Shown here: positions 1,700-51,673 of the stretch, piece by piece
Position numbering within the stretch: position 1 is the first letter of the stretch
Layout: each line of letters begins with the position of its first letter
Source of the DNA: Schizochytrium sp. TIO01
Lineage: Eukaryota > Sar > Bigyra > Thraustochytrida > Thraustochytriidae
NCBI GenBank assembly: GCA_004764695.1
Contig: SMSO01000014.1
Coordinates: 6,066,029 to 6,130,028 of the forward strand
Length of the DNA: 64,000 nucleotides
Direction of reading: 5' to 3'
Made by a program: the position numbers and the translations under genes
Notes under the pieces: model-generated
Database searches by the model: none
What the model was told of the DNA's origin: nothing
Seen by the model: the letters and a program-made list of their open reading frames with translations, nothing else

Positions 1700-2656
1700 T
1701 TATGAAGAGGAGCCACTACTAGAGATAAAACCTTGCTGCAACAAGAGTTCACGGGCAACATTATTGATAACTTTGAAGCGCGAAGGACCCATCTGAATAC
1801 CACCGTACCAGCGACTAACAACTACCACGACATTCCGTGCATCTACAATATCGAGAAGTCCAGCAAGCTTTGAGCCAGCTGCGTTTTCACCATCGTCATC
1901 GTTATCACAAATGAAGCTGCCTGGTTTGTCCTGGCGCTCAATACGGTACGCCATCATGTTATGTGTGGCACGAAGAATTTTGCGATCCTGCTTGAGCGCG
2001 AAAATCACCTCAAGTGCCTCTTGAGCGCTGGTCACTTTGGCTACATGTGCCTGAAAAGATGACTTTTGTTGGGTGAATGGATCTCCACTAATAATCGTCA
2101 ACGGCTTTTCACGCTGCTGTGACCTCTTCTGGCGCGCTTTGTCCTCTTCATATGCCTTATATGCCTCCATGTCATAATTTTCCTCTTCAAAGCCATGATC
2201 TTCACTGGAATTTTGTCCAAAGCTGCTCCAGCCCGTCTTCATAGATTTGTCGTTCTCAAGGACATTTTCATCATCATGAACATCTTCTGAAGCGTTGTCA
2301 ACATCTATAATCTCATTGAGCTTTTCACGCAAGAATTCAACCCATGCAAAGACCACGACGTCCGGAGCTTGGTACAGCTCTAGCAACTCTTTGTGAAGGT
2401 CTTCGACCTGGTCTTTGCGAGGCCAGTTCCGAATGGTCGCAATGGGAGGCTCAGAACTAGGGTACCCAGTCGGAAGGTCCACGCGCAAAGCTGCGGGGTC
2501 TGTGTACTCTGGCACATCTGCAGCGTCCTGAAGTCGGATGCTCATGCTTGAGGCCCCATGGCGATCCAGCTCGCCCGCGTATATCTCCGAGAGCACCTCA
2601 AGCTCCTCAGCACGAGCTGCAGCGTCTTCCTCAGAGACGCCCTCGCTACTGCTCAT
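1700..2656 (-). CDS. IMPACT: IMPACT-family protein (RWD + IMPACT domains)
   Basis: Single-exon gene of 318 residues. The longer open frame begins with TTG at 2674, so I take the first in-frame ATG at 2656. Residues about 8-110 form an RWD domain, with the RAEELEVLSEIY opening and the YPSSEPP turn typical of that fold. An acidic linker follows. Residues about 188-310 form the IMPACT (UPF0029/YigZ-like) domain, including the SRWYGGIQMGPSRF segment. Known relatives (mouse IMPACT, yeast Yih1) bind GCN1 through the RWD domain, stop GCN2 activation and so limit eIF2-alpha phosphorylation under amino-acid shortage. By homology the same role in the cytosol is likely here. The length matches the family and the stop is TAA. 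It is divergently arranged with the gene starting at 3535. I am very sure of the family and infer the function. Confidence 0.93.
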   Translation of the reverse strand: MSSSEGVSEEDAAARAEELEVLSEIYAGELDRHGASSMSIRLQDAADVPEYTDPAALRVDLPTGYPSSEPPIATIRNWPRKDQVEDLHKELLELYQAPDVVVFAWVEFLREKLNEIIDVDNASEDVHDDENVLENDKSMKTGWSSFGQNSSEDHGFEEENYDMEAYKAYEEDKARQKRSQQREKPLTIISGDPFTQQKSSFQAHVAKVTSAQEALEVIFALKQDRKILRATHNMMAYRIERQDKPGSFICDNDDDGENAAGSKLAGLLDIVDARNVVVVVSRWYGGIQMGPSRFKVINNVARELLLQQGFISSSGSSS

Positions 2657-3534
2657 CGGCACAGGGTAGCTCAATCTCTAACAAAGAGTCCTTGAAGGAG
2701 TTGAAGTAATGTAGGAATAGTGCCAATGAATGAAGAAGAAAGAAAGTGAGAGAGAATAAATGGATGAATAAATCATTACATAATAAGAAGTTGGTTCATA
2801 CGTACAACACATGCAGAAATTCACAAGAGAAGATTTTCCGTGGGGTTTGGACGCTATTGACGAAGGTAGAGAAGTGAAGTGCAGCAAGACTTTCGAGAGA
2901 CCGGATGATTGGATAGAGAGTAACCAAAGCAAATAAACTTATTGAGCAAAACAATTTTTGTGGGGTAAGAAAAGTTTGATGCAAATTAACTAAGAATTTA
3001 TCAATTCTAGCCAAAGAAAACGCCACGGAAAGTCTAAGCAAGCTTTGGAGGCCATGCATGGTCGAAGGGAGCTATACCAATCAAACAGGAGATAATTTAG
3101 AAAGGCATGGTGAGCTAGGCTATGAAAAAAGTTCGGTTCTGAAAATATTGATTTTAGTAGGTACAAGAATTGAAAGCGATATTTATCATGATCACTACAA
3201 CAACACAAACACACCCTCCCCTCCCAACAAAGTTGAGTGAAATTCTGCATCCAATTGTTTTTGCAAACCAAGCACAAATGTTGAACTGTCTCATCCACGC
3301 CGATTTAATTGATTGGCACAGCTACATTGACTTAACAGGTGAGTTTATTCTGCTTCGTTTTATCTTGTTAGTTTCTTTTTTTAAGTGAAAAAAAAGTATT
3401 TTTCTTTCTTTGGTTCGATCGATCGTTCATAAGTTCAACCAACCTCTGTGAAGACGAACCCGGAGACAGACGGCACTGCAGTGACGTACAACGACAGGCG
3501 AGAAGAAACCCCTGAGCGATAACGAATCTTCCCA
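2657..3534. promoter_or_regulatory. Divergent intergenic region between IMPACT and the 3535 gene
   Basis: About 880 bp separate two genes transcribed outward, so it must hold both promoters. It is AT-rich and contains only short overlapping open frames without coding character. A GTGAGT at about 3341, just upstream of the + gene, could be the donor of a 5'-UTR intron, but no acceptor stands out. No clear TATA box was found. Confidence 0.4.
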
Positions 3535-7172: not shown

Positions 7173-9827
7173 ATGCTTAGCGAAAAAGTGGTCACGGCTG
7201 CAATTCAGAAGATTAACGAGGGCGCAAAAGAGGTTTCGTAAGTTCATGGCGTATCATAAAATAAAATGGGCCCAATTTACTAATACGAAGCTCAATTGTA
7301 ACCCCTTTTTTAGGCTTGAAGAAAATATTTTGGACCCTGAAGGAGTGGAGGCTGTCCTAGCCGCAGTCCGTAAAAGCAAAATATTGCGCTACCTTAGGTA
7401 CGTGTACAAGAAAAGACTTGGAATTGCCACGCTGATTTTCTCCTTACTGTCTTGCAGCACAATTATTAAAACTAACGTTTCTCAATCGAATGTGAGCTGA
7501 GTAGTTTCTGGAATTGCAAAATTGGGGATAAGGGAGCCCTATTGGTTGCGGAGGAGCTTCAACAGAACCGGACTCTATATGAAATTGCGTAAGTTCACCT
7601 ATAATATAATTTCTTCATGTCGTGTAAAAGGCCACACGCAATAGACTCGAAACTCACATATACATACAGTTTGACCGGAAATGTCATCACGGACATTGGA
7701 GCCAAAGCTCTTGCTGGGGCCCTTCAAAACAACACCTCCTTGATTGCATTGAGGATGGCTAATAATGAAGATATCACATCAGAGGGAGTCGTAGCCATTG
7801 CTGAAGTATTACAAAAGCACAATAATACCATTCGTGAGCTCAAGTAAGTTTTGTTTTCCACAATCGCTAACACAACCCTAGGACCACGTTCTGATTTTAA
7901 TTTTTTTTGGCGAATTTTTGAATGCTTGAAACAGTCTTGGATATTGTCGATGCGGAGACATTGGAGCTCGAGCATTCGCTGCTGCATTAGGGCACAACAA
8001 GGGCTTACAGGTTCTAGAGTAGGTTTATATAAAATTAAAAAAGTCGCCAACAGACAAAAGGACTAATGGAAGCTACACCATACCATTTCTAACAACACAG
8101 TCTTGATCAAAGTCAGATTAGCGAAAATGGAGCCACATCTCTTGCTCTATCTCTTAAGAACAATCGCTCATTGAAACTCCTGGAGTAAGTCGCAGAATAC
8201 GTAGAACTTGAGTGTAAGTACTTTTGGGGCTAACATTTTGATTTCTTGCGGTCTATATCAATAGTTTACGGTTCAACGACATCGGGGATCGTGCAGTTTT
8301 TGCGCTTGCTGTTGGCCTTCAACACAATCGTACCTTGGAGCACTTGGAGTAAGTCTTGTATTTTAGGGCACACCGCTGACTTGAAAGCTAACTATTTCAA
8401 TTCCTTCGCGTTCATCTTGCATTTGCATCAATATAGCCTCTCATGTTGTGGAGTGACAAGTCAAGGCATTCGGGCTCTGTCTGCAGTTCTCGAGGGCCAC
8501 CCCACGGTTACTGGCCTAAGGTAAGTCTATTGTAGCAACCATGTCTAACGCAACAAAGGCTAAAGTTAAGCTAACTTGAAACTTTCGGTTTTGTGCATAG
8601 CCTCGCATTCAACGAGGTTGGGACGGACGGGGCAATTGCTTTGGCTGAGGCTCTCAAGAAAAACACTCAAATCCAACTCCTCGGATTGTCACATAATCGA
8701 ATTGATGCCAGGGGTGCGGAAGCTCTTGCAAAAGCGCTCGAGGAAAACACCTCAGTGCTTCGACTAAAGTAAGTTGTCGTTAAATGAAAAGGAGCCTGTA
8801 AAATTCCAGTTTGCTAACTCTATGCAAATGTCTTGAATGTATAATGATATGAATAGTTTGGAGCGAAATCAGGTATGCGATGATGGTGCTCACGCTCTCG
8901 CGGCAATGCTCGAACAGAATCAAACACTCAAAGTTATATTGTACGTTAGATACCATTTTGTTCAAGAAAAATCTCGAGGGTTGAAATAACTTACATGAAA
9001 CCTTGGAATTTGACAGTCTTTATGACAATAACATTACCATGATCGGTGCAAGCTCGTTGGCAAAGTCTTTGATCCAAAACCAGGCATTGGAATCCTTGGA
9101 GTAAGTTGCGACTATAATTTGCTACAAATGTGTTTATATTGCACACAACTAACCTGAAAACCCCGATGTTGATTATTGTGCGTAGCCTAACATTAAATCA
9201 GATTGGAGATGAGGGTGCCCGCGCATTTGCAGAGGCATTGGGGAACAATGAAACGCTTGCGCGACTGAACTTGTTACAGTGCAAATTAACAGATGAAGGG
9301 GTACATTTCTTTGACGATGTACTCCAAAAAAACGAATCTTTAACACATTTGAAGTAGGTGAGCAATAAAATACCCGTGTTGGATGATTCTTTTGGACTAA
9401 CAATCTGTTGAATATGCACAGTTTTGACCCCCAAGCAAGCCCAGCTATTTCTGTCCATCTTGAAACAAACAAAGTTCTGCAAAGTCTTAATGTCGAGGTA
9501 GCCAATATGAGAAAGCTGGCGATAGAGCTGATCCTTTGCAATAGAATATTTGTGCACTATGGTTTGCCTGTAGGACGTAAACGAGCTCGCGAAGGATCAG
9601 AAGTAGAAAGATTCGACAACAGATTTAAGAGGAATTTGTCATCCAAGGATCTACGTTTGTGCAGATTGCGTGCACAACAAGTGTATTTACAATCACAGAT
9701 TGACCAACTTGCCGGAAACGTTCCGCTCATAGCTCCTTTCCTCCTGCCATGTGTAGAGGTTGTTCGAAATTTCAAAAGATGCGTTGATCGCCTTGCAACG
9801 CCGATGTCCGGCTTTTGTGTTTCCTAA
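7173..9827 (+). CDS. LRR protein, ribonuclease-inhibitor/NLRC3-like repeats, 13 exons
   Basis: Exons by reading splice sites: 7173-7237, 7314-7397, 7505-7588, 7670-7843, 7935-8018, 8101-8184, 8265-8348, 8437-8520, 8601-8768, 8857-8940, 9017-9100, 9186-9353, 9422-9827. Together they encode 550 residues. Every intron is phase 2 and falls at the same place, just before the LxL/N part of a repeat. Nine exons are exactly 84 nt (one 28-residue LRR), two are 168 nt and one 174 nt (two repeats each), giving about 14 repeats. The repeats follow the RI-like pattern, with IGDxGAxALAEAL helices and LxxLxLxxN strands. The last exon adds a non-LRR C-terminal region of about 100 residues (GLPVGRKR, then PLIAPFLLP) shared with the next gene. 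RI-like LRRs bind proteins, and the partner is unknown. No signal peptide, NACHT or kinase domain is present. Donors are GTAAGT-like. Splicing is inferred, but the repeat register confirms nearly every junction. Confidence 0.88.
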
Positions 9828-10469
9828 CATTTAATCGCAAATAATTAGTCCTTTAATTTTCACTTAGAAGGTTTTGTATACCTATGTACCTACTGTTGGC
9901 GCGAGGAACAAGATTTGACAATGTTAACAGATAGAGCCAAAAATATCCACATGGTCAGCTTTTCTGAGCCTTTATATACTACATAAATTGATTTATCCAG
10001 ACCTTGGCCTTCACATTCTAATCTGTTTTTGTTATCTCCATTGCGATCAACAATAGGCATGTTCCTACCCAAATGCATGATATAATTCTCAATTGATGTA
10101 CTAAGGAACATCTTAATGTAGCGTGGCGGAACGTGCAGCAGGACTAGCACTAGCCTAGAATTTACCAAATCCACTCTGATAGTGTTGGCCACTATCAGTA
10201 ATTATAGGATACTGCTACCCAGTAACACGAAAAATATTCATGAGTTCATTTTTCAGAGGTAATGGCCCTTGTTCTTCTGCAAAGAGTTTAGATCTGCACG
10301 TAGATTCAGGTTGAGTACAGGAGCACCACTTTCTGTTCTTTACTTCATCAACCAGTGGTTTTACCTGATTCTAAAGCGACTGCCTCTGTGCTGCGGTCTG
10401 CTGTTTTGTATCGCTTTCAGCCTCCCTGCTCACGCGGAGCTTGTTTTCGGAGCAAAGCGTTGTGACATC
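9828..10469. promoter_or_regulatory. Spacer between tandem LRR genes
   Basis: About 640 bp between the stop of the first LRR gene and the ATG of the second. It should contain the terminator of one and the promoter of the other. An open frame upstream of 10470 continues from a TTG at 10269 and encodes a hydrophobic stretch, but it has no ATG. Both genes have a 65-nt first coding exon if ATG 10470 is used, so I exclude the upstream part. Confidence 0.4.
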
Positions 10470-12951
10470 ATGGATCTTTATGCACTCAGAAAAAAATTAG
10501 CGCCTGGCGAGGAGCAACAACTACGAATTGTAAAGTAAGTATATGCGAACAGGTGATGAAAGCCATAGCCATCGACCTCAACGAAGGTACTAACTTCAAA
10601 AACGTTCGTGGGATACCTTCTCATCACTTAAACTAAATAGCCTTATGGGATATGACCTTGATGCAAATGCTCTCATGGTGTTATCACAAGCTCTCATGTC
10701 AAACTCTATAGTCGAGGAGCTCACGTAAGTTGCTCATGCATGTTACACCACCAATCTGGGCATTCCAACATCACAAGAATAAGGAACGTAAGTGTAAAAC
10801 AAGCGTACTTACTAACTCAACGCTTTCGCTTTGTTGACACGTGGGCAGCCTTGATATTCCAATTGTGACGAAGGAGAACGCCAAGTATCTGGCAGAGCTC
10901 TTGGATGCGCATGCTACAATTCGTGCGTTTCGGTGAGTTTGTTTAGACGTAGTAGGGATAAATATTTGTGGCGAAGAAGCTAACGATTTGGAAAGACTTG
11001 CAGACTTCGGAAATCAGAATTTGAAGAAGGAGCTATGGCAATTCTCGTTGCCAATTTCGGCAATTATGATAAGTTGCAGACCATCAGGTATGTATACAGT
11101 GTTTAGAATTCATTAAAGCTTTTCTTGTACTCACTGACGTTGTCTCGCTTATGTCTATTCCTGCAGTTTCTCTGGGTGTGAAATTGAAAATATTGCTGTC
11201 GAGCTATTAAGTCAAGCTATGATTAAATTACCGGATTTAACAAACCTTGTGTAAGTGCTTTATGAAACAATATTGATTCACAATTGATTGATCTAACGCA
11301 ACATTGTTTGTTCCTAAGAACAGGCTTTATGAAAATAAAATAAGTCATAATGGTTCCCATGCCCTTGGTATGATATTATCGAAAGCACCCAATCTTCGAA
11401 TCCTCGAGTAAGTTGTTCGTTTGCGCACTTATTTGGCACAGGTATCAGAGAAAATTGAGTCTGAAATATTTATTGGTCCATTTTCCTATTGTTAATTTTT
11501 TGCGCAACTTCAGAATGAAGGCATATCAGCTAACCTTTGCTTTTCTATTGTTGATTATGAAATTTCAAAAACAGTCTTGAGAATAATTATGTGGGAGCAA
11601 AAGGATTTGCGCAAGTTGCTGAAGGTCTTAAATACACTCGCTCTCTCTTATTGCTCAAGTAGGTTTTATTGCAGCATCTTTGACCCATGGCAGAAATAGT
11701 TTGTTAACTTTCTTCGTCTTTTAAACAGTCTTGAGAAAAATGGTCTTGATGATGGTGCTCTGGCAAGTCTAATCAATGCCGTGAAGCAATGCTCTTTGGA
11801 TAAACTATACGTGAAGTAAGTGTATTTTCTATGCCGCATACCCAGCTTGTTATAAATATTGATGTTAAAACTAACGCCATACTTCAAATAATAATTATTA
11901 TCGTACAGTTTACAAGACAACCAAATCAGTGACATTGGGGCAAAAGAGTTCGCAGAATTCCTATCACTTAATAGAGTTATCACACGAATCAAGTAAGTTC
12001 CAAGATAGAGTTGATGTTCAGTGGACATTGCTATAACGCAACTTTGTTCTCTAAAGAGGGTTTGTTTTCCCACTCACAAAACCTATATAAATCAGTTTTG
12101 CGTTCAACAAAATTACAGGTGAAGGGCTTGAGGCCATTGCTGAAAATCTCCTTAAAAACAATATACTGCGACGTATTAGGTAGGTATTTCGTGGTCTGGT
12201 ACAGATGTTTAAAGTCTACACAAAAACTAACTACTGTTGAGATTGAGAAACTGATTCAGTTTTGAGAGCAATCTGATCGATGATAGAGGTGCTTTGGCGA
12301 TGGCTAAGACATTGGCCATACACAAATATATTGCACGGGTAAAGTAAGTAGAGGAGGGAGTTTGTTTGGTGCGTCTAGTATAGCTAACAAGAGTTGCAAC
12401 ATTCAGTATGCAAGGCAATAAATTAATTACACAAGATGGCATGCAAGCCCTATGTGGGGCCCTGGAGCAAAACCGATCTTTAATTTTCTTCAAGTAAGTT
12501 CTTTCACATAGCAAAACCCAAAAGGGGGCTGGCGTTGTACTAACAAAATTGATTGTAAAGATTTCCTCACTCAGGAACTGCCGAAGGACAACGCATGTTT
12601 GTGCAAATTGAACTAAATGTATCCTTATCAAAGTTGCACATTCAATTTGATATCTTAAAGCACCTATATCAGGAGCTTATTTTTGCGAGGATTATTTGCC
12701 GACGAATTGGGCTTCCTGTATATAACAAAAGACCGCATCACTGCGTCAGTGACTCGGGCTACTTGCTATTAGAAAATAGAGAATTCAGCTCTGACAAACA
12801 TCGAGGCTTAGCCGTTCTGGAACACAGGCTTCAGAATACCCATCGAGATGTGTTAGAACTGTCGGTTGCCATGCCTCTCCTGGCTCCTTTCTTAATGTTA
12901 CGCCAAGATCAGCTTCTCCAGGTAGTGACGTCTAGATTTCGAGCTGTATAA
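10470..12951 (+). CDS. LRR protein, tandem paralogue of the 7173 gene, 13 exons
   Basis: Exons: 10470-10534, 10641-10724, 10849-10932, 11004-11087, 11167-11250, 11324-11407, 11575-11658, 11729-11815, 11909-11992, 12096-12179, 12260-12343, 12407-12493, 12561-12951. They encode 461 residues. The layout copies the neighbour: a 65-nt first exon, then eleven single-repeat exons (nine of 84 nt, two of 87 nt), all phase-2 introns, then a long last exon. The last acceptor at 12560 (GTAAAG) was chosen because it continues the frame and aligns with the paralogue. The nearby CAG at 12574-12576 would hit a stop. The C-terminal region matches the paralogue (RRIGLPVYNKR against VHYGLPVGRKR, then PLLAPFL), although the LRR part has diverged strongly. 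That suggests an old duplication. The function is probably protein binding and no partner can be named. The exon count differs because repeat pairs are fused in the other gene or split here. Confidence 0.86.
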
Positions 12952-13534: not shown

Positions 13535-16324
13535 TTATTCATTGATAGCAGGCGGAGTTGAAGATTGGTGCATTTGCCGGAAACGATGGCAGTAGTGGGC
13601 AAGCCTGGGTGAGTTAGTATCCTGGGCAAATTCATCGATATAATTTACCGACTCTTGGTCAATGTTTTCAATAATCATGGCTTCGCATACGCGTGCTAAA
13701 TCGTCAACTCCAAAGCAGCGCGCGCTAGCCAAAACTGACATGACGGTTTCTGGCTGGCAAATAGAGCGGTCTCCACAGTATACCCAATAAAGCAATGTTG
13801 AAAGTCCCCGAGGAGTCAGGTTGTGAAGCATGATACGAGCCTCCTTGTCTTGGGCATCTCTACTTTCCCTGAATTGGCCTGTGAGAAGTTTCTCAAAGAA
13901 GGGGTATCGGCAGAGAATATCCATGTTTGCACTACTTGCTAGGCCTGCAGAGGAGATGGTCTCCTGATCGTCTTCATCTGGATCAACTGCTCCTAGAAAA
14001 ATATTATGATCATGCGTATCAACAACTGCCCGACGCATGTCATTTGCAAAAGTTGACACAGGAAGCACAGGAGGCTCGCCAACAGACGACACTGAACCTT
14101 CTTCATTGACAATCATTCTCAGGGTACGTTGATGACGTGCAAGCTTGCAGAGGCCTTGCAGATGTTCCAGCTCTAGGAGCTCAGCAACTTGCTGTAAGTC
14201 AATCAGCCTGTGCGGTGGACATGAACGAAGATGATCAGTATACAAATACTCGACAAGAGCTCGGAGAACAAGGGGAGCGAGAACGAAGGATAGATGGACC
14301 TCTTCAGCAAAAGGTGAACCTGCGGGCATAGACTCAATGGAATCTCGTAGCTTTGGACAACGAGCAAAGAGCACAAAACGGTGAGCTGCTACAGTATATT
14401 TTCGCTCTTGATCGGATTCGGATTCCTTCGCCTGCGTTGCGGAAAGCTTTGAGCGAATCCGAATGTCAAAGTGATTTTCGTGGTCAGCTCTCAAGCCATG
14501 TCCAACCGAGGGAAGTGCGACTGTGTCCGAGGATTTTTCATTTACGGGCAAAAGTGGCGCGTATGACAGCGCAAATTGGCTACCCTGTTGTTCAACAGCT
14601 ACCAACACATGGTTCGGGCCAGCTGTAACATGGGTTACCCGCATACCTGCAATGGCTTCAATAACACGCGGTTGCGTATAGCGAGCACCGGGTCCATGGC
14701 CAAGAACTCCGGAACCATTCCAACCCCAGGACCACACAAGACCACTTTCATCGACAGCGAGACTGTAACGTGCAGCACTTGCAATAAACTTCACAGGAAC
14801 TTGCACAAGGGTATCAAGAGAGGTGGGGTCTATCTCGGGGTCAGCATCCAAAGCTAAGGTAGCTGGGCTACAAAACGGCTGGACAGGTCGAGGCTCATAA
14901 AAATGGCGCATCAAATGAGCATATTGCAAATCTCGACCTTCTTTGTTACTTCCACCATGCTGCCCATACTCTGCATGACCCCAAGAGTAAATTTCACCAG
15001 TAGAAGTCAGACACGTCGAGTGATACTCTCCAGCCGTGACCTGCACCACACGCACATTGTTCTGCGCCAGACGCTCAAGACGATTCGGAACCAATCGCTC
15101 GACAGTTGTCGCGCCAAGACCCAGTTGGCCGAACGTATTTACTCCAAACGCCCATATTTCACCAGAGAGCGTTAGAGCTAATGTGTGAGAGCTGCCACAA
15201 ACGACATCTGAGACCCTGATTGTAGATAAACTACCTATAACAGGGCCAAATTCTGCACGACTAAAACGATGGCCAGTGCCAAGTTGCCCTCTGTCATTGT
15301 ATCCCTTTGTTAAAATCTCTCCATGGATGGAGAGTGCTACAACGTGTGCAGCACCTAAGCTAACCTTTGCAACTTTAATATTTTTCAGGCTCTCTGCTAG
15401 CTGAGGAACTGCTACAACGCGTCGACGCGAGCGCAGATTCACCACACCCTCCTTTTGCGCAAGCTGCTGGGCAGGAGCAAGTTCTTTTTCACGTGCTTGA
15501 TGACGAGCCTCAACTGCGCGCTCCTCTTCGTTAAGCTCTTCGTACTTTTGCGCATGGAATGCTCGGCTTTCACGCTCAAACTCTGCATCCGAATCGCCAA
15601 TTGAGGAGGAGGCAGAGGCTCCAGTAGTGCCTGCGCTTGCTGAGGAGGCTGGGACCGTGGCGCCATCTTCTGCTTCCTCAGGTCGGACACCAGACTGAGA
15701 ACTTAGGTAGCGAATTGTCGATTCTTTCACGAGACGAATAATCCGCTCTGAGTGGTAACGATTAGGCTGCAAACCGTGAAGCTCGATGGTTGAAGCGCCG
15801 GAATCCTCGTGTGGAGGGCAGTAGTGCACAAGGCCCCATTCGAAGAGCTCTCCGTCCTCTGTGACTGCAGCTGCAGCAGTGTGCCCTGCCGCAACATGCA
15901 CAACACGACGTGCTGTGAGATCACCCCCAACAAGACCGGGTCCACCATCAGAGGTTGTTTTGCGTCCAAGCTGGCCTTGATTATTTACACCAAAACTATG
16001 TAAATTGCCAAATTCGTCCAGGACCAAAGAGAACCGCTCGCCTGCAGCAACCTGCACGACACCTTGGGCTTCAAAGGGCTCAATAATCCTAGGTTCACGC
16101 TCTTCGGGCTCTCGAGTCGGAATGCCAAGTTCGCGATTCACGTTTCTACCCCAGCCAACCAGCGTACCAGGCTCATTACTTTTAGAGCGTCGGACAACCG
16201 TAGACAAATCTTTCTGGCCCAAATCTACTTGTGCCTCTTTCTCGCTGCTAAGGTTATCATCCTCTGGCAAAGCTATAGCATTGATGCTTTCGTTTTCCTT
16301 GGCCGTCGCACTCATCTCTACCAT
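13535..16324 (-). CDS. RCC1-repeat protein with two BTB domains
   Basis: Single-exon gene of 929 residues. The open frame extends to a TTG at 16342, but the first ATG is at 16324 and a stop lies just upstream. Residues about 35-560 carry RCC1 repeats with the characteristic GxxHxxAL and WGxNxxGQLG motifs, forming a seven-bladed propeller interrupted by a charged, coiled stretch (about 215-300). Two BTB/POZ domains follow, at about 615-740 (AAHRFVLFARCPKLRDSI) and about 770-900 (HNIFLGAV, then LSTLLYWVYCGD). RCC1 plus BTB occurs in RCBTB1/2 and, with paired BTBs, in IBTK, which act as CUL3 ubiquitin-ligase adaptors. This protein lacks the ankyrin repeats of IBTK. A CUL3 adaptor role is inference from the domains. 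Confidence 0.9.
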   Translation of the reverse strand: MVEMSATAKENESINAIALPEDDNLSSEKEAQVDLGQKDLSTVVRRSKSNEPGTLVGWGRNVNRELGIPTREPEEREPRIIEPFEAQGVVQVAAGERFSLVLDEFGNLHSFGVNNQGQLGRKTTSDGGPGLVGGDLTARRVVHVAAGHTAAAAVTEDGELFEWGLVHYCPPHEDSGASTIELHGLQPNRYHSERIIRLVKESTIRYLSSQSGVRPEEAEDGATVPASSASAGTTGASASSSIGDSDAEFERESRAFHAQKYEELNEEERAVEARHQAREKELAPAQQLAQKEGVVNLRSRRRVVAVPQLAESLKNIKVAKVSLGAAHVVALSIHGEILTKGYNDRGQLGTGHRFSRAEFGPVIGSLSTIRVSDVVCGSSHTLALTLSGEIWAFGVNTFGQLGLGATTVERLVPNRLERLAQNNVRVVQVTAGEYHSTCLTSTGEIYSWGHAEYGQHGGSNKEGRDLQYAHLMRHFYEPRPVQPFCSPATLALDADPEIDPTSLDTLVQVPVKFIASAARYSLAVDESGLVWSWGWNGSGVLGHGPGARYTQPRVIEAIAGMRVTHVTAGPNHVLVAVEQQGSQFALSYAPLLPVNEKSSDTVALPSVGHGLRADHENHFDIRIRSKLSATQAKESESDQERKYTVAAHRFVLFARCPKLRDSIESMPAGSPFAEEVHLSFVLAPLVLRALVEYLYTDHLRSCPPHRLIDLQQVAELLELEHLQGLCKLARHQRTLRMIVNEEGSVSSVGEPPVLPVSTFANDMRRAVVDTHDHNIFLGAVDPDEDDQETISSAGLASSANMDILCRYPFFEKLLTGQFRESRDAQDKEARIMLHNLTPRGLSTLLYWVYCGDRSICQPETVMSVLASARCFGVDDLARVCEAMIIENIDQESVNYIDEFAQDTNSPRLAHYCHRFRQMHQSSTPPAINE

Positions 16325-18444
16325 GTTGTTTATCTGCGCCAATGCAATGTGTCAACTTCGATAGACCTTAGCTTTTTCGTCGAACTGTATTTTGTTTCTG
16401 TTGTGCAAAGTTTAGCTCAAGTTTTTGACCCGAGTCCAACTTTTAGATGCTTGCTGTGTCCTTATACGTCTGTTCTTCAGAAGCAAAGAAGATCCAAAGG
16501 TGCACTGATTGTTTGAGGAGACTTTCCTCAACGAGCAGGCTGTGTACACTGCCACACGAAAGCTCTACTACCTAGGTACCCTCCTGAGGATTCCACTAAT
16601 TCAACTTATGCACACCTCACTCGAACTCGGCAGCTTACGCTGCCTCACAAATCGCAGTAGCTTGAAAAGACACCTCTCCTACTCTTGAGTAGTGCAACTC
16701 TCGTGGATGTTCTTCTGTCTTTGATTTCACAGAGGCCACTCCACAGAGGTTTTGGGTTTGCACGAGGTACCTCGTAGAGCAGAGGACACATGTTCAATTT
16801 TCCAGTTTTGAAATGAAATGAAATTAAAAAAAAAAAAATCTTCACTAGAGTATACTTAGTATATTACTATGTATTGAGAGATACTCATTATTTTTCGCGC
16901 ACACACCCGGTTCTGTAAATGTTCCATTACCTTTTGGCGCAAGGACCGACTGTTTTCACTGTCATTGTATATGGGCGCTGACGTCTACAAAACGATCTAA
17001 TATGACACACAAGGATCTCTCCGGCTCTGCAATAAAGACCAATGTTTAAGCAAATGCTCAAAGTCGTTATTTCCTTGCTCCTTTTTCTTTGCTTTTTTGA
17101 TCTTGCACAAACAAACAAAAAATAGTGGCCTGGCAGCGCAATCAGAAAGAATTGAATTAGCTCTCCAAAAACAAACAGTTTAAGGACAAATTAGCATTTC
17201 GAAATTAAAAATTAACCAGATCTAATCAAGCAGAATCTCCCTTTGGTTTCCACTTTCTGAGTGTCTCTTTACTAATTATTAAGCATACGGTCTATGTCCA
17301 AAATACTTCATTATAGTGTGGCTTTTCAAAAACAAACAATCAGCAACCTCACTTTATCGACATAATTAATATCTCAATAACCTCTAGTGATGTATGTGAG
17401 TAGATTAGTTTAGATAGTAGCTTTGCATGCCTGCACGCGTATTGTGAACTAGATGCATACCACTTTTGCAGTTTGTTTGTTGATATGGAAGCTACTTACA
17501 CTTCTTTCTGGATCAAATCTACAAAATCAGCCATGTATTATTGAATAATAGAAACCCAGTTTATGTTCATTTTGTTGTATTAATTATGAAATTGCGATAA
17601 ACCGTTAAGGTAACTTCAGCAGCCAATGATTTGTGAACTGATGGTGCTAAAATTGACAGTAGGTCGGGAAATCGTGCATCTTATGAATAACGTGTTACAT
17701 CAAATCACACTGCTTCGAGTACGTATCTAGAGCCCAGAAAATACTACACGAAGCATACAAAAGGGTCTTCCTCAAAATTCTAAGTTTCACCCTGGAAAAG
17801 AGCGCAAAAACAACGCTCCAAAATAATTCCACAATCTCTGAAATACGCCCCCATTCTGCTCTCAATTATGCAGTGCTGTCTTAAACTTCACGGTTTGTTT
17901 TTGCTTCTAAGCACTTCGTTCTACACGAGTACAGAGTCTTGCCCACAATTAAACAATGTACAAGATCCATGTTTGCATTCGGTCTTTTTCAGACACTTAT
18001 AAGAATCAGTACTAAGTTCAGTACTCAAATTCAGTTTCTTGTCAAACCCTTGAGTTTTCCATGATTCTGTGAGACAATTTTTTACATACCACTAGTTTAA
18101 TCAGGCTACTGGTTACATGATTTACCAAAAGGTTAAGGAGATCTTTTTAAGTTTGTTCGTTCATGTATATATTGACTGCTTAAAGATACGTATGAAGGCG
18201 GGGAATATATTTCACGTTGAAAGCTTTCTGTAAAACATGTGCATCTGAGCCAGGAATCGAGGTGTTCTAGCACATGGGTTAAAAACATAAACAAGATTTG
18301 CATCAAAGACGGATAATTCATTGTAAAAGGGCTTCGTTTTGGTTGTTCAATAGGTAGGCATCGTTATCATTGATTGTATATTCGCAGCGAGATCTAGTTC
18401 GTGTCATTCGTGTGATCGAACAGGGTTTATACTTACTTACTTAC
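16325..18444. other. Intergenic region, no gene seen
   Basis: About 2.1 kb between two - strand genes. It should contain the promoter of the RCC1/BTB gene (near 16325-16600) and the 3' flank of SF1. It is AT-rich with only short open frames. A CTTA tetranucleotide run just before 18445 gives a TAAGTAAG series right after the SF1 stop. Confidence 0.4.
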
Positions 18445-20250
18445 TTATTTGGCCTTTTTGGACGGGGGAGGGGGCGGAGGCGGCCTTGGCGGAGGCGGGG
18501 GCGGGGCGCCAGGCGGTCTGGGTGGCATGGGTGGCATGGGAGGCCTTGCCTGGGGTTGTCCTTGTTGATCTTGCTGGCCAGGCCAGCTCGGAGGCATTCC
18601 ATAAGGCATACCAGGAGGCATGGGCATAGGCGGCGGGAATGGCATACCTTGCGGTGGCATTGTCATGTTCATTCCAGGAGGCATTGGCATGGGCGGTGGA
18701 GGTGCCGCCGGGCCTGTTTGGTGCTGATACTGCTGTTGTTGTTGAGGCGGTGCCACATATTGGTGCGACGATTGTGAAACAGGTAAAGACGAAGTAGAGA
18801 CAGCGTCTAATAGCGGTCCTCCAGATGCTGGAGCTGAGACAGGGGCAGGAGCAGAAACAGAATACTCGGAAGGAGGCGGCGCGGATGACGTTGGAGCAGG
18901 AGGAGGTGTTGGAGCTGAAGGAGCAGCAGGCTTATTGCTGCTAACCTTGACACCAAGGTCCTCCATGAACTCATCAAAGCCTTCCTCGATACGAGCACGC
19001 TCGTCGTCCTTGTCTTCGCCTTCATCGTGCATGTTGCGACGAGGACAATCGCTGGTCGGATGGGAAGCATCTCCACAAATTGCACAGCGAATCGTGGAAC
19101 GTGAGGCACCGCTCTCGGCTGCAGCCTTGGGACATTCCCAGTGACGATGACCTGGCAGTCCGCAATTTGTGCAATGCTGCGTCTCGCGGAGGGTACCGTT
19201 GATCATGGCAAGTTCACGAAGCTGATTTTGTTTGTGCGTATTGATACTATCGTCAAGTGGGCGCAAAAGATCCTCAACCATCTCGACAGCCTTGTCAACC
19301 TTATCAGCATCAAAACTTTGAATAAGCACATGAAGGTCATCGTTAAGGTCATCCTGATCGCGGCGATCCCGACGACCGCGGCCCTCCTTGACACTTCCTT
19401 TACCCCGAATGCATACCTTGGCGCCAGACTCTGATTCGAGACGCTTCTGGGTGTTGCCACGAGGGCCGAGAATGAGGCCGATGAAATTATAGTTGGGAAA
19501 GTCCTTGACAGGAACATAAACCTTGCGTTTGATCATCTGCTGCCGCACTCCAGATTGACGGGCAGTTGATGGGTTCAACGATACAAGCTCACCCTGAAGC
19601 TTAATCCGTTCGTTTTCGAGCTTTGCACGCATACGAGCCTCGCGGGTGTTAGTGCGTTTACCACTGCGGTCATATTGGGGTTCCGGTGACGGGCTACGAT
19701 TCGGGTTTTGCTCTTCCCGACGAGCATCTTCTGCGACAGTTTGAAGCCTCCTCATGACTGAGTCAATCTGGAGTCTCAACAGCATGGATTTCTCCTCGCG
19801 CAGTGTTGCCCCGGTGTTTTCTTTGGGTGGTCCCCACCTCGTGCGTCTTTTGCGCCCTCCCGTTGAATCTGCAGCTCGCGATGAAGAAGAAGAGGATGAT
19901 GCAGCATGCTGATGACTATTCGTACCATCGTCGTTTTCATCATCTTCAGCATCACCCCAGCGATTACGTTTGCGGGCTTCTTGGCTGGCCTTTGAGTTAT
20001 CATTGTGATCATCTCTGTGACCGATTTCGCTAACGTGACTATTCCCAGCGCGCTCAAAGGCCTTCCGGACCTTGCTAAAGTGCTCCCAGTCAGCAAGCTC
20101 TCTTGAGATAATGGGAAAATCTCCGCATTCGTTCTTCAGTGATGCAGCCTCGCCCTCATGTGCGTTATACCATTTCTTCAAAGGCACAAAAATCTGCCTC
20201 GCCAGAGCTTCGCGCTCCGCGGCTTCTTCTCTGCGACTTTGCTCATCCAT
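18445..20250 (-). CDS. SF1: Splicing factor 1 / branch-point-binding protein
   Basis: Single-exon gene of 601 residues starting at ATG 20250. A basic RTRWGPP segment near residue 135 resembles the U2AF-ligand motif of SF1, in which a Trp after basic residues docks on U2AF65. A helical region follows (about 140-235) with SPSP at about 180, the site phosphorylated in known SF1 proteins. Then come the KH domain with a QUA2 extension (about 250-345, FIGLILGPRGNTQKRLE), two CCHC zinc knuckles (about 357-371 and 387-401), and a long Pro/Gly/Met-rich tail ending in polyproline and KKAK. SF1 recognises the intron branch site during early spliceosome assembly. That fits the conserved CTAAC elements in the introns of this window. 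It is head-to-head with CWC15, another splicing gene. Identification is secure. Confidence 0.95.
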   Translation of the reverse strand: MDEQSRREEAAEREALARQIFVPLKKWYNAHEGEAASLKNECGDFPIISRELADWEHFSKVRKAFERAGNSHVSEIGHRDDHNDNSKASQEARKRNRWGDAEDDENDDGTNSHQHAASSSSSSSRAADSTGGRKRRTRWGPPKENTGATLREEKSMLLRLQIDSVMRRLQTVAEDARREEQNPNRSPSPEPQYDRSGKRTNTREARMRAKLENERIKLQGELVSLNPSTARQSGVRQQMIKRKVYVPVKDFPNYNFIGLILGPRGNTQKRLESESGAKVCIRGKGSVKEGRGRRDRRDQDDLNDDLHVLIQSFDADKVDKAVEMVEDLLRPLDDSINTHKQNQLRELAMINGTLRETQHCTNCGLPGHRHWECPKAAAESGASRSTIRCAICGDASHPTSDCPRRNMHDEGEDKDDERARIEEGFDEFMEDLGVKVSSNKPAAPSAPTPPPAPTSSAPPPSEYSVSAPAPVSAPASGGPLLDAVSTSSLPVSQSSHQYVAPPQQQQQYQHQTGPAAPPPPMPMPPGMNMTMPPQGMPFPPPMPMPPGMPYGMPPSWPGQQDQQGQPQARPPMPPMPPRPPGAPPPPPPRPPPPPPPSKKAK

Positions 20251-32277: not shown

Positions 32278-33501
32278 ATGAGTAAGAAGGGGAATCGGGC
32301 AGAGCGGCGCAAATCCCGATCCACGGGAGGATCGTACACGCACACACCCAATGCAGAGCCTAAATCTAGCAAGGCAAACTCTACAAATTCCGTGGAAGCC
32401 GGTGCAACATCTACCACTTCGTTGCCTTCATCTGCAACTAGTAAACCTTCTGGAGAAGAATCTCAGCAAAAACAAAGTAGACAAAACCAAATACAAACGC
32501 AACTGGAGCAGCTACGACAAAGACAACAACAAATTCAGCAACAGAAACAAATGCAAAAAGAGCTCTTAAAAAAAACATGGATGCCCGATGAGGCGACTGA
32601 GGTTTGTCTCGCTTGCCAAACTCCTTTCAACGTTTTTACCCGACGACATCACTGTCGGCGTTGTTTGCGAATTTTTTGCTCAACTTGTTCTCCATTTCGA
32701 GCACACCTTGCAGCATACCCTAATGAATCCGTTCGGATTTGCATCTCCTGTTTTAAGGCCCTGGCTGACGAAGGTGACGAAGGGGCCGTTCGTCAAATTC
32801 GAGATTGGGCAGCAATGGCATTGTCTTCCTCCACAAACTCTTCCGCAGGATCATCCTCCGCTTCTCTCAGACAAGCACTAGAACATAGCTCAGAGCTCCG
32901 ATTTAACCCAGAGCCCACTGATGAACAACAACTACAACAGTCGGTAAATCTGCATGGTCGCGCTCGCAGGAGTAGTGCAGAAGGTATACAGAGTTTCATG
33001 TCCAATGCTACTCTTGGAACTAGTCTTGCGTCTCTATGGGCCCGCTCGTCCAAAGCTGCAGCTGCTTTAGGAGTAAGCTCCTCTGGACAGTCCAAAGGAG
33101 CAGCTCAGCAATACGCAGGACCTACCTCACCTAAGTTATCATTCACCGAAGTGACGGATGATACAACACTAGTTGATCACCGCGAAAGTTCTTTAGAACA
33201 TACGATATTATCCTCCGATGAACCCGTTAAACCTTCAATACTGCCAATACCCCCGCTAGCAACCTTGCCAGCTCGGCCGCTTCAAGCTGACCCAGTACCC
33301 CTAGCTCTTTCTTCGACTTCAGTTTCCCGGGTATCCACTGAGATATCCGCAGCGATCCCTCACCAGCAGTCAAAACCGAATGCCCCGTTTGGCTGGTATA
33401 AGTGGCTCAGCCGCGCCGCTATTGTTTTGGCCATCATGATGCTACTAAGACGATATGTTGCATCAAGAAGGGCTCTACCCACTTCCCCATCTGCATCATG
33501 A
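32278..33501 (+). CDS. FYVE zinc-finger protein with C-terminal membrane anchor
   Basis: Single-exon gene of 407 residues. After a basic, Ser/Gln-rich N-terminus (a Gln/Lys coiled stretch at about 60-100), a FYVE domain spans about residues 101-158. It has WMPDE, the CxxC pairs, RRHHCRRC and RICISC, the signature set that binds phosphatidylinositol 3-phosphate on endosomes. A Ser-rich, probably disordered middle follows. Near the end, about 375-394 is a hydrophobic segment (AAIVLAIMMLL) flanked by Arg, with about 15 residues after it, so it looks tail-anchored. The canonical Gly after RRHHCRxC is Leu here. The protein probably sits on or bridges PI3P-bearing membranes. Its partner is unknown. 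Confidence 0.9.
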   Translation: MSKKGNRAERRKSRSTGGSYTHTPNAEPKSSKANSTNSVEAGATSTTSLPSSATSKPSGEESQQKQSRQNQIQTQLEQLRQRQQQIQQQKQMQKELLKKTWMPDEATEVCLACQTPFNVFTRRHHCRRCLRIFCSTCSPFRAHLAAYPNESVRICISCFKALADEGDEGAVRQIRDWAAMALSSSTNSSAGSSSASLRQALEHSSELRFNPEPTDEQQLQQSVNLHGRARRSSAEGIQSFMSNATLGTSLASLWARSSKAAAALGVSSSGQSKGAAQQYAGPTSPKLSFTEVTDDTTLVDHRESSLEHTILSSDEPVKPSILPIPPLATLPARPLQADPVPLALSSTSVSRVSTEISAAIPHQQSKPNAPFGWYKWLSRAAIVLAIMMLLRRYVASRRALPTSPSAS

Positions 33502-40504: not shown

Positions 40505-41902
40505 TCAGAAGGTAGCTTTGGTGCCAATAAGATGCTCGCGAGTAATCATGTTAAGAATCTGAGCCTCTTCCTCGGGTGTTTCAGGGACCTTGAAGTCCTT
40601 GGGCTTCTGAGGAACCACCATGTAGCGCGCATCGGCGGTAGAATCATGTACACGGACCTGCTGATCATCAGGAATGTGTGTGCCAAACTCCTCAAGGAGC
40701 TTGCGAGGTTCACGCACAGCGCGTGCACGGTAAGAGCGAGCCTTGTACCAAGAAGGAGCAGGTCCCAAAAGACCGCCCGGGTAGCAGCTACAGAGAGTAC
40801 ATACAATAAGGTTGTGCACATTGTCATCGTTGGCAACGACAATTAGGCGGGTGGGTGCGTTCGGGTTCCCACCATCGAAACCAAGCTCGGCAACGGCTGC
40901 GTTACCATCCTTAAGGAGGCGTTCGAAGAAACCTTCGTCCTGCCATGCCTTGAGTACAACCTTGGCACCATTCATGACGCTACCTTTGGTCTCACCGCCT
41001 TCGACGACCTTTTGGAGGTCTTCCATGGTATAAACACCCTTTGCAACAAGAGCATCGATGAGACCATTGCCGAATTGCTCGTCAGCAGCGGCCGGGCCTT
41101 CCATATCTCCTTCGCGCTCGAGAGCGACCTTCTCAACGATGGTGCGTTCCTCGTGAACGTGGTCATGCTCTCCCTCACCGTGGCTGTGGCCATGGCTGTG
41201 GCTGTGGCCATGGTGATCGTGATCGTGATCGTGGGAGGTAGCGTTGGTGGGGCGAGATTCCTTTTGGGCCTTGAACTCGGCTTCAGTTGCAGGAATCAAC
41301 CAGGGCTCGTAGATATCCATGTCAAGAGTGTCGTTGTCGCCGCCGACAAAGTTGGTCCAAAGGTCTTTCTGGTTAAAGCGAACGCGGTAAAGGTCCTGGT
41401 CTGGGGCTTCACGACGGAAGGCCAAGAGCTCGGGGGCTTTGAATGAGCCGACAAGACGCTCGATCTGGCCGACAACACCGAAGATGTAGCCTGGGGTACG
41501 CAAGTGAGGGCGAATGAAGCTGGTTTTAAAGCTTTCGCTACGTACACGTACATAGTCTCCAGCCTTGTACTCGTTCTTGATAACTTCAGGAGGCTCCGGG
41601 AAGATAAACTTGCTCACATCCTCGTTGGTGAGCACGCCACGCTCGACCAGAATTGCAAGCATGGAGCGAGCCCACTTACCGTAGTAGGTGCAGTTCTTGT
41701 AAACTTGCTCAGGCAAGTTCTCGACACCACGACGCATTTCATCAGTTGTAATGTATCCACGCTGGGCCAAAATGCCAAGCGTGGCATGGACGCGGCGCTC
41801 CCAAAGGGCCATCGGGGAGTCAATGGCTTTGCCATCAAAGCACACAGTGTCATACGCTTCTTCGAGGCCACCGACATCGTGTTGTCCGATTCGAGAAGCC
41901 AT
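40505..41902 (-). CDS. Nitrile hydratase, beta-alpha fusion, cobalt type
   Basis: Single-exon gene of 465 residues. Residues 1 to about 215 form the beta subunit (HDVGG near the start, YYGKWARSMLAILVERGVLT, and the SH3-like PHLRTPGYIFGVVGQIE). Residues about 270-465 form the alpha subunit. The metal-binding motif VCTLCSC is at residues 367-373. Its Thr marks the cobalt rather than iron class. Two of the Cys are normally oxidised to sulfinic and sulfenic acids. The enzyme hydrates nitriles to amides. Bacterial enzymes have separate subunits with alpha usually first. The beta-first fusion with a His-rich linker (about 225-262, alternating His with Asp/Gly/Ser) matches the form known from the choanoflagellate Monosiga brevicollis. 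The linker may bind metal. The strong G/C-ending codon bias and lack of introns suggest high expression. No cobalt chaperone or amidase gene is nearby. Confidence 0.95.
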   Translation of the reverse strand: MASRIGQHDVGGLEEAYDTVCFDGKAIDSPMALWERRVHATLGILAQRGYITTDEMRRGVENLPEQVYKNCTYYGKWARSMLAILVERGVLTNEDVSKFIFPEPPEVIKNEYKAGDYVRVRSESFKTSFIRPHLRTPGYIFGVVGQIERLVGSFKAPELLAFRREAPDQDLYRVRFNQKDLWTNFVGGDNDTLDMDIYEPWLIPATEAEFKAQKESRPTNATSHDHDHDHHGHSHSHGHSHGEGEHDHVHEERTIVEKVALEREGDMEGPAAADEQFGNGLIDALVAKGVYTMEDLQKVVEGGETKGSVMNGAKVVLKAWQDEGFFERLLKDGNAAVAELGFDGGNPNAPTRLIVVANDDNVHNLIVCTLCSCYPGGLLGPAPSWYKARSYRARAVREPRKLLEEFGTHIPDDQQVRVHDSTADARYMVVPQKPKDFKVPETPEEEAQILNMITREHLIGTKATF

Positions 41903-50452: not shown

Positions 50453-51504
50453 ATGCAAATGAGAGAGAATACACATCTTCGATAGAATGGAATACTTTGA
50501 TAAGTGAGAATTATGATTGTTGTTGAGAATTTTATTATCTTAAGAATGAGATTTGAAAGAAAATTGAGTATATGATATATGTATATAGATATATGTATAT
50601 GTATATGTATGTATGTCAATGTATGTCAAAGTTTGTATATGTATGAATAAAAAGACGTAAATAATTAGTTATCATCAGACAGAGTTGAGTTCGCTACGCC
50701 GCAAACTCCGTCTGCGCCGCCCTCGCGCGGGCAAGAGCAGAGGCACCGCTGCCCCGGGTCTCTGGGATATTGAGGACGCGGCACGCTGATCCAGGCAGCC
50801 AGTCAGCTCGGCGACGACGCGGCCGGCCAGAGCGCGCCAGCTAGCGCGCCAGCGAGCAGAGGGCAGAGCTCGCTAGCTCGAAACGTGGATTGTAGCAGGG
50901 CCTGCTCGGCAACTGCACTGTCGCTTTAATCCTGGCTCGCTTCGAATCCTTACGCACTGCTGTCTTATACGTCGAATCATTGGAAGTCATTGTGCTGCGT
51001 ATCTGTGCGAGGTCTCTCGCCTCATTCATTCTCATTGCGATAGTCTCTGTGCTCGATTTGCACATATTAATTATCATTGGGGATTTTAAATAGAGATTAG
51101 AGGATTAAGGCATCGCGAACTTGGCGTGAAACACAAGGAAAGATCTGATAGACACCAGTGACGCTTTGAATAGACTCTGTTTCACTGTGTCTTGTAAGCC
51201 TTTCGAAGCACATTACCCTTAATCAAGCAGGAATTTGCGCTCAGAGTCTTTACGCATTTTCACGAAAACGCTGTGGCTTTAATACAAATCTGATCAAGTG
51301 TGACTTCAACCCTATTCTGTATCTAGTTAGACTCTCACATTCACTAGATTGTGGGGTATATATTATTGAGGGGTTGGGACATTCCAACGAAACTTGTGTG
51401 CCACAGTTCCTCGATTTTAGTGGTTTGTTTGTTTTGGTCGGAGGTGACCTTTGGGACCCTGCAATTGGCTGTGTACGGAAGCTCTGCATTGCTGTGATAG
51501 AAAA

Positions 51505-51638
51505 ATGCCTCCTGCTAAGGGCAATCGTGTAGGACCACAGCAGCGTCGAAGGATGCAGCAAAATGGAAGCAATGGCAGCAACAACCACAACAGCAGCAGC
51601 AACGGCAGCAACGGCAACAACGGCAACAACGGCAGCAA

Positions 51639-51673
<35 letters not shown>

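Follow-up and report, generated by a model that had tools for sequence, protein, structure and literature searches.

A design in which each leucine-rich repeat (LRR) occupies its own exon is not unique among protists, as it is known from Tetrahymena and brown algae. Tetrahymena carries arrays of 90-bp phase-2 LRR exons, whose exon+intron units measure about 347 bp in T. thermophila, and the arrays are associated with the REP (non-LTR) retrotransposon (PMC6564038). In brown-algal LRR-ROCO genes, sites under positive selection lie on the concave face of the repeat domain (PMC11378527), and human NLRP genes place two LRRs in each 171-bp exon (PMC6642158). For thraustochytrids, a passage of a transcriptome paper reports relatively few LRR proteins compared with other species and does not mention exon structure (PMC8917795). 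Here we describe two tandem LRR genes, gene 1 and gene 2, in a 64,000-nucleotide (nt) stretch of the genome of the thraustochytrid Schizochytrium sp. TIO01 (contig SMSO01000014.1, positions 6,066,029 to 6,130,028; hereafter the window). We consider it likely that both belong, as old and diverged members, to a family of ribonuclease inhibitor (RI)-type LRR genes spread across the genome that gain, lose, and reshuffle exon+intron units, and whose exposed residues have been diversified.

Both genes follow one plan, with a 65-nt exon 1, 11 repeat exons, and a long final exon (406 nt in gene 1 and 391 nt in gene 2; Table 1), and in the spliced models the frame of both proteins is open from start to stop. 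The exon borders were set by eye and checked by script, and are thus predictions from sequence. All 24 introns are in phase 2, in agreement with the first-pass annotation, which had both genes breaking at a shared phase-2 point of every LRR. Its count of at least 18 exons of exactly 84 nt came down to 17 (eight in gene 1 and nine in gene 2), with the other repeat exons being 87 nt (two), 168 nt (two), or 174 nt (one) long, as it had stated. One repeat per exon, which it had proposed as a strict rule, describes most repeat exons: the 25 repeats are distributed over 22 exons, three of which, all in gene 1, hold two repeats each. The 28/29-residue tandem repeats are of the RI type and match Pfam LRR_6 (E = 1.1e-50 for gene 1 and 5.2e-15 for gene 2), and the top match of gene 1 in the PDB was a ribonuclease inhibitor. 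A Pfam scan of the two genes (E ≤ 0.001) gave LRR models only, with no ROC-COR, NACHT, or NB-ARC domain. A strict scan of the window for 84-nt LRR exons, which recovers only 7 of the 17 such exons in these genes, found seven on the plus strand, all within genes 1 and 2, none on the minus strand, and none in each of 20 mononucleotide shuffles.

The first-pass annotation had also proposed a genome search for other genes with 84-nt phase-2 exons, and this search (64 Mb on 37 contigs; all match counts are lower bounds) yielded a third gene as well as many arrays of such exons. Pfam LRR_6 gave at least 617 first-look candidates, of which 150 were scored; they comprised long frames and many short ones clustered at regular spacing. 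With a 29-residue query there were at least 911, the best 150 of which were scored; these lay in open frames of 31 to 77 residues and formed 39 clusters (10-kb linkage) on 22 contigs. Ten array loci (L036 to L045), picked from the strongest search matches, were read. They contained 130 84-nt exons accepted by the scan, in phase 2 and with the same LRR opening point as in genes 1 and 2; 111 of the 120 gaps (150 to 450 nt) were taken as introns, and the nine others, which may contain scan-missed exons, e.g., of other lengths, were excluded from the divergence figures.

The units in most arrays measure approximately 345 to 490 bp, and the introns were copied together with the exons, in near-identical exon+intron units. 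One complete array gene has exons of 62 + 20 × 84 + 328 nt, that is, 20 consecutive 84-nt exons, and encodes 689 residues without an internal stop; all 21 of its introns are in phase 2, with the first exon and the last acceptor picked by eye. The first exon of locus L043, also picked by eye, is 65 nt long, the first-exon length of genes 1 and 2. At locus L041 a gene of the old style stands head to head with a homogeneous array; twelve of its 84-nt exons were accepted, and they are separated by gaps of 58 to 108 nt and one of 198 nt.

Diversity within the arrays was confined to particular codons. In five homogeneous arrays (L037, the minus strand of L041, L042, L043, and L045; 70 exons), mean intron p-distance was 0.012 to 0.057, and the proportion of differing pairs reached 0.50 to 0.73 at codon 2, 0.37 to 0.60 at codon 3, 0.10 to 0.56 at codon 5, 0.33 to 0.50 at codon 8 (Asp or Ser only), and 0.44 to 0.63 at the split codon. 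At codons other than 2, 3, 5, and 8, the proportion of synonymous differences (pS) was 0.041 to 0.101 and that of nonsynonymous differences (pN) 0.000 to 0.037. Plotted base by base, diversity rises in sharp peaks separated by codons that hardly vary, and the third base of codon 27, beside the split codon, varies too. The 70 exons carry 62 distinct combinations of exposed residues. Given the LRR pattern x-L-x-x-N-x, the variable residues, except that of codon 8, should lie on the concave side, and codons 2 and 3 are predicted to be exposed beta-strand positions. Mean intron distance in the other five arrays was 0.086 to 0.183, and three of them (L038, L039, and L044) had the same diversity peaks.

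Codon 8 was either GAC or GAT (Asp) or TCA (Ser); the Asp and Ser codons have no base in common, and none of the 70 exons carried an intermediate. Of 52 codon 2-3 words, 6 were shared by two or more of seven arrays (105 exons). Such a dimorphism and such recurrent words would fit an exchange of old variants between units. At the variable codons of the homogeneous arrays pS was 0.446 to 0.544. Pairs with the same amino acid used different codons in 33 of 317 cases (10.4%) at codons 2, 3, and 5, compared with 112 of 1,979 (5.7%) at codons 1, 4, 6, and 7 and 589 of 9,235 (6.4%) at codons 9 to 27. Targeted hypermutation, which the high pS had first suggested, may still contribute but is not needed, as by this same-amino-acid test the excess is mostly a multiple-hit artefact.

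The C-terminal domain probably connects the window genes to the arrays. The array C-terminal exon had at least 56 matches in the genome at E ≤ 10, some of them fragments. With hhalign, a profile of the window C-terminal domain (three sequences) matched an array profile of 14 sequences at a probability of 89.1 (E = 2.3e-6, 101 columns); the latter was hand-picked (13 of 20 sequences plus one from L046), and the probability had been 11.9% when the array profile comprised only two sequences. The two C-terminal domains are probably homologous, which would make genes 1 and 2 members of the array family. They also share its short phase-2 exon 1, 84-nt phase-2 LRR exons, C-terminal LP motif, and PLL.PF or LG.Y end. 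No intronless gene with the array C-terminal domain was found among the at least 56 matches. The sole frame longer than 193 residues, one of 1,763 residues at C35:20004, was considered as an intronless homologue and rejected as an artefact of an N stretch.

The third gene (gene 3) lies at locus L035 on contig C33. Its exons measure 77, 252, 75, 6 × 84, 168, 84, 15, and 370 nt, and its 12 introns are all in phase 2, giving 36 of 36 for genes 1 to 3. The last exons of the three genes are alike (27 to 29% identity), and the 168-, 174-, and 252-nt exons, which correspond in length to two or three repeats, look like the outcome of intron loss. Introns of genes 1 to 3 are 60 to 167 nt long; the donor is GTAAGT in 25 of 36, and 35 of 36 have a CTNAC or TTAAC branch-point-like motif in their final 70 nt (mean 11.1, maximum 20, in 500 shuffles), such that the splice signals look genuine. 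The introns of the three genes showed no convincing homology to each other (blastn of the 36 introns against one another gave 38 hits at E ≤ 1, and the strongest spanned 22 bases at E = 0.002, without a shuffled control). In permutation tests of repeat collinearity (5,000 permutations), P was 0.48 for genes 1 and 2, 0.046 for genes 1 and 3, and 0.056 for genes 2 and 3, which suggests no firm one-to-one homology of repeats among the three genes.

Arrays were enriched near contig ends. On ten contigs longer than 1 Mb, 13 of 23 array clusters lay no more than 100 kb from an end, where 3.7% would be expected, as did 14 of 30 C-terminal exon matches on eleven contigs of known length (3.9% expected; counted in the first 49 matches, with 19 on other contigs left out). 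Binomial P values were approximately 2e-13 for the clusters and 1.5e-12 for the C-terminal exons, treating copies as independent, which they are not. TTAGG telomere repeats were present at 5 of 12 inspected contig ends (both ends of C3 and C33 and the start of C32), one other end being N and six lacking the repeats. Genes 1 and 2 are internal, approximately 1.38 Mb from the contig end.

Several other features of the genome were observed. A ribosomal RNA (rRNA) small-subunit site had four exact matches (C13:7159396, C27:10924, C28:9046, and C29:10341), of which C13 was confirmed as an rRNA operon, and three lay less than 6 kb from an array C-terminal exon match (C13:7153737, C27:5229, and C29:15689). 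Paired matches at a near-constant offset between C14 and the start of C31 (e.g., C14:78934 and C31:33275) suggest that C14 may be a duplicate of the C31 end or another haplotype. At L036 and L049 (C30:994800-1005400) the LRR array appears, by eye, to run into a long protein kinase frame (PF00069, E = 3.2e-30) with a Cys-rich tail that by eye is RING-type ligase-like, without a Pfam call. Long tracts of a CTTG/CAAG-type tetranucleotide repeat occur in or near first introns of array genes (L042 intron 1 and L041 at approximately 2370-2860), and a similar run lies at one end of C24. Upstream of the C3 array, a frame at L043 2-340 looks by eye like a partial von Willebrand factor A-type domain.

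These results suggest a family in which one 28-residue repeat corresponds to one 84-nt phase-2 exon, and in which unequal crossing-over or gene conversion among exon+intron units would add, remove, and reshuffle repeats. As the introns interrupt the beta-strand at a common point and in phase 2, gain or loss of a unit should be harmless to frame and fold, and exchange may be helped by the long near-identical introns and, in many arrays, by a subtelomeric position. Young members would then be the near-identical arrays enriched near chromosome ends, with helices and introns homogeneous and exposed beta-strand residues diversified, presumably through selection that diversifies the binding face. 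With age, introns would shorten and diverge and some would be lost, leaving genes such as 1 to 3 with the exon plan kept. The proteins may be cytosolic, and whether the family consists of recognition proteins, receptor- or adaptor-like, we regard as evenly balanced. It is rather unlikely that exon+intron cassettes of constant backbone and varied exposed residues are exchanged between the partly subtelomeric arrays, by meiotic or mitotic recombination, fast enough for individuals or clones to differ in binding specificity, which would amount to a modular immune or self-recognition repertoire outside animals.

Several observations weigh against this interpretation. Genes 1 and 2 themselves have neither convincing intron similarity nor collinear repeats, so that duplication in their case is deduced from their relatives; the first-pass annotation's proposal of repeat gain by exon duplication is well supported for the family, by near-identical exon+intron arrays that match the window genes in exon length, phase, and boundary, and would carry over to genes 1 and 2 indirectly. 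The arrays came from the best matches and are not a random sample, and their gene models are sequence predictions. L036 lacks the peaks at codons 3 (0.07) and 8, and its codons 22 and 26 also vary, and L040, with five exons, shows little diversity at codons 3 and 5 (0.20 and 0.13). The synonymous excess at the variable codons is inflated by multiple hits, and a recognition role brings in a ligand or partner that is postulated.

Other explanations can be set against the same data. An LRR gene that originally had no introns might have acquired them later, in parallel, at one fixed site in every repeat, as the dissimilar window introns would allow and as would accord with RI-type LRRs in long uninterrupted frames elsewhere in the genome (45 of 66 matches lie in frames of at least 300 residues, counted as matches and not genes, with some frames possibly lengthened by N stretches, as the C35 frame was). 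We consider this highly improbable, as relatives with the probably homologous C-terminal domain have introns copied along with their exons, none of the at least 56 matches to that domain is an intronless gene, and many independent insertions would be required to place 36 of 36 introns in phase 2 and nearly all of them at a single position of the LRR. Common inheritance of the 84-nt phase-2 design with vertebrate NOD/NLRC genes, as opposed to convergence, draws on the fact that most human NOD/NLRC genes have one 28-residue LRR per exon and that most NLR exon borders fall at a fixed beta-sheet point (PMC6642158). Yet no NACHT domain was found in genes 1 and 2, and exons of 90 bp in Tetrahymena and 72 bp in brown algae indicate that such a design arises with different repeat lengths, making shared descent improbable.

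The design might instead be kept mainly for alternative splicing, with one gene giving proteins of different repeat number. As the first-pass annotation had expected, modules can be skipped in frame: all 66 contiguous internal skips in each of genes 1 to 3 are stop-free (132 of 132 in genes 1 and 2, and 198 of 198 in all), and 432 donor-acceptor combinations (144 per gene) produced no junction-codon stop. Alternative splicing is reported for brown-algal LRR-ROCO genes, where, as in human NLRP3, isoforms differ in LRR exons (PMC11378527, PMC6642158). Frame-safe skipping, however, results largely from the uniform intron phase and is therefore no independent evidence for alternative splicing, and the donors are mostly of one strong type, GTAAGT. 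Alternative repeat number through splicing is thus possible in genes 1 and 2, and as the main reason for the design it seems unlikely. Similarly doubtful is the view that these are structural or housekeeping LRR proteins, for instance axonemal or RI-like, whose variability reflects relaxed constraint and concerted evolution. PDB matches do include ribonuclease inhibitors and axonemal LRR proteins, but relaxed constraint should not spare the other codons (pN of 0.000 to 0.037) while exposed codons reach 0.73 and introns 0.012 to 0.057, and dozens of copies near contig ends are untypical of housekeeping genes. We therefore favor a family of RI-type LRR genes reshuffled by exon+intron units for genes 1 and 2.

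Table 1. Exons of genes 1 and 2 and single-frame neighboring genes, in window coordinates
Feature	Position	Strand	Description	Basis
Gene 1	7173..9827	+	13 exons, 14 RI-type LRRs, 550 residues	spliced model, Pfam LRR_6
Gene 1 exon 1	7173..7237	+	65 nt, ends in phase 2; gene 2 exon 1 is equally long	spliced model
Gene 1 exon 2	7314..7397	+	84 nt, one LRR	spliced model
Gene 1 exon 3	7505..7588	+	84 nt, one LRR	spliced model
Gene 1 exon 4	7670..7843	+	174 nt, two LRRs	spliced model
Gene 1 exon 5	7935..8018	+	84 nt, one LRR	spliced model
Gene 1 exon 6	8101..8184	+	84 nt, one LRR	spliced model
Gene 1 exon 7	8265..8348	+	84 nt, one LRR	spliced model
Gene 1 exon 8	8437..8520	+	84 nt, one LRR	spliced model
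Gene 1 exon 9	8601..8768	+	168 nt, two LRRs	spliced model
Gene 1 exon 10	8857..8940	+	84 nt, one LRR	spliced model
Gene 1 exon 11	9017..9100	+	84 nt, one LRR	spliced model
Gene 1 exon 12	9186..9353	+	168 nt, two LRRs	spliced model
Gene 1 exon 13	9422..9827	+	C-terminal domain; resembles gene 2, gene 3, and (profile) array genes	spliced model, profile comparison
Gene 2	10470..12951	+	13 exons, 11 RI-type LRRs, 461 residues	spliced model, Pfam LRR_6
Gene 2 exon 1	10470..10534	+	65 nt, ends in phase 2	spliced model
Gene 2 exon 2	10641..10724	+	84 nt, one LRR	spliced model
Gene 2 exon 3	10849..10932	+	84 nt, one LRR	spliced model
Gene 2 exon 4	11004..11087	+	84 nt, one LRR	spliced model
Gene 2 exon 5	11167..11250	+	84 nt, one LRR	spliced model
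Gene 2 exon 6	11324..11407	+	84 nt, one LRR	spliced model
Gene 2 exon 7	11575..11658	+	84 nt, one LRR	spliced model
Gene 2 exon 8	11729..11815	+	87 nt, one LRR	spliced model
Gene 2 exon 9	11909..11992	+	84 nt, one LRR	spliced model
Gene 2 exon 10	12096..12179	+	84 nt, one LRR	spliced model
Gene 2 exon 11	12260..12343	+	84 nt, one LRR	spliced model
Gene 2 exon 12	12407..12493	+	87 nt, one LRR	spliced model
Gene 2 exon 13	12561..12951	+	C-terminal domain	spliced model; chosen acceptor gives open frame, nearby alternative acceptor an early stop (by eye)
RWD-UPF0029 protein	1700-2674	-	single frame	Pfam
RCC1-BTB protein	13535-16342	-	single frame	Pfam
SF1-like splicing factor	18445-20250	-	single frame	Pfam
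FYVE protein	32278-33501	+	single frame	Pfam
Nitrile hydratase	40505-41902	-	single frame; fused beta + alpha chains, His-rich stretch between	Pfam NHase_beta_N, NHase_beta_C, NHase_alpha
Multicopper oxidase	57812-59860	+	single frame	Pfam
MORN-repeat protein	60267-61805	-	single frame	Pfam

Among the neighboring genes, the nitrile hydratase is an unusual enzyme for a eukaryote. Two long frames in the window, 51451-54150 and 54041-56488, had no Pfam match.

If our interpretation is right, Schizochytrium would join Tetrahymena and the brown algae as a protist whose genome uses one-repeat-per-exon LRR arrays. Its genome would hold young arrays alongside old derived genes, with the copied introns serving as a clock and with diversity limited to few codons. 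Two questions would become directly testable, namely, whether the arrays serve as recognition repertoires and at what rate recombination reshuffles them, and the arrays could offer protein engineering a natural fold-safe LRR library. In a limited literature collection we found no published description of the 84-nt arrays of the Schizochytrium genome, their C-terminal domain, or the contrast between hypervariable exposed codons and near-identical introns.

The variable lymphocyte receptors of lampreys are similar in being built from LRR cassettes with a diverse face; they are assembled by a gene-conversion-like process and take a secreted or membrane form. Human NLR genes carry a NACHT domain, which was not found in genes 1 and 2. 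Human NOD/NLRC genes share with the window genes the 28-residue RI-type repeat, an exon border fixed in the beta-sheet, and frame-preserving exons, whereas the cited section describes no near-identical arrays with copied introns for NOD, NLRC, or NLRP genes (PMC6642158). Brown-algal LRR-ROCO genes likewise combine one LRR per exon, phase 2, and exon shuffling, but with 72-bp exons and with ROC-COR GTPase domains, of which genes 1 and 2 had none (PMC11378527). The Tetrahymena arrays have one exact exon length, phase-2 introns, and near-identical exon+intron units (about 347 bp there and approximately 345 to 490 bp here), and young arrays are subtelomeric, as are many relatives of genes 1 and 2 here, although not genes 1 and 2 themselves (PMC6564038). 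The oldest Tetrahymena genes lie mainly on chromosome arms, introns there tend to shorten with age, and unequal crossing-over has been proposed, whereas the Schizochytrium family differs in its 84-nt rather than 90-bp exons and in having its own C-terminal domain, and its exposed residues are hypervariable where Ka/Ks in Tetrahymena indicates purifying selection (PMC6564038).

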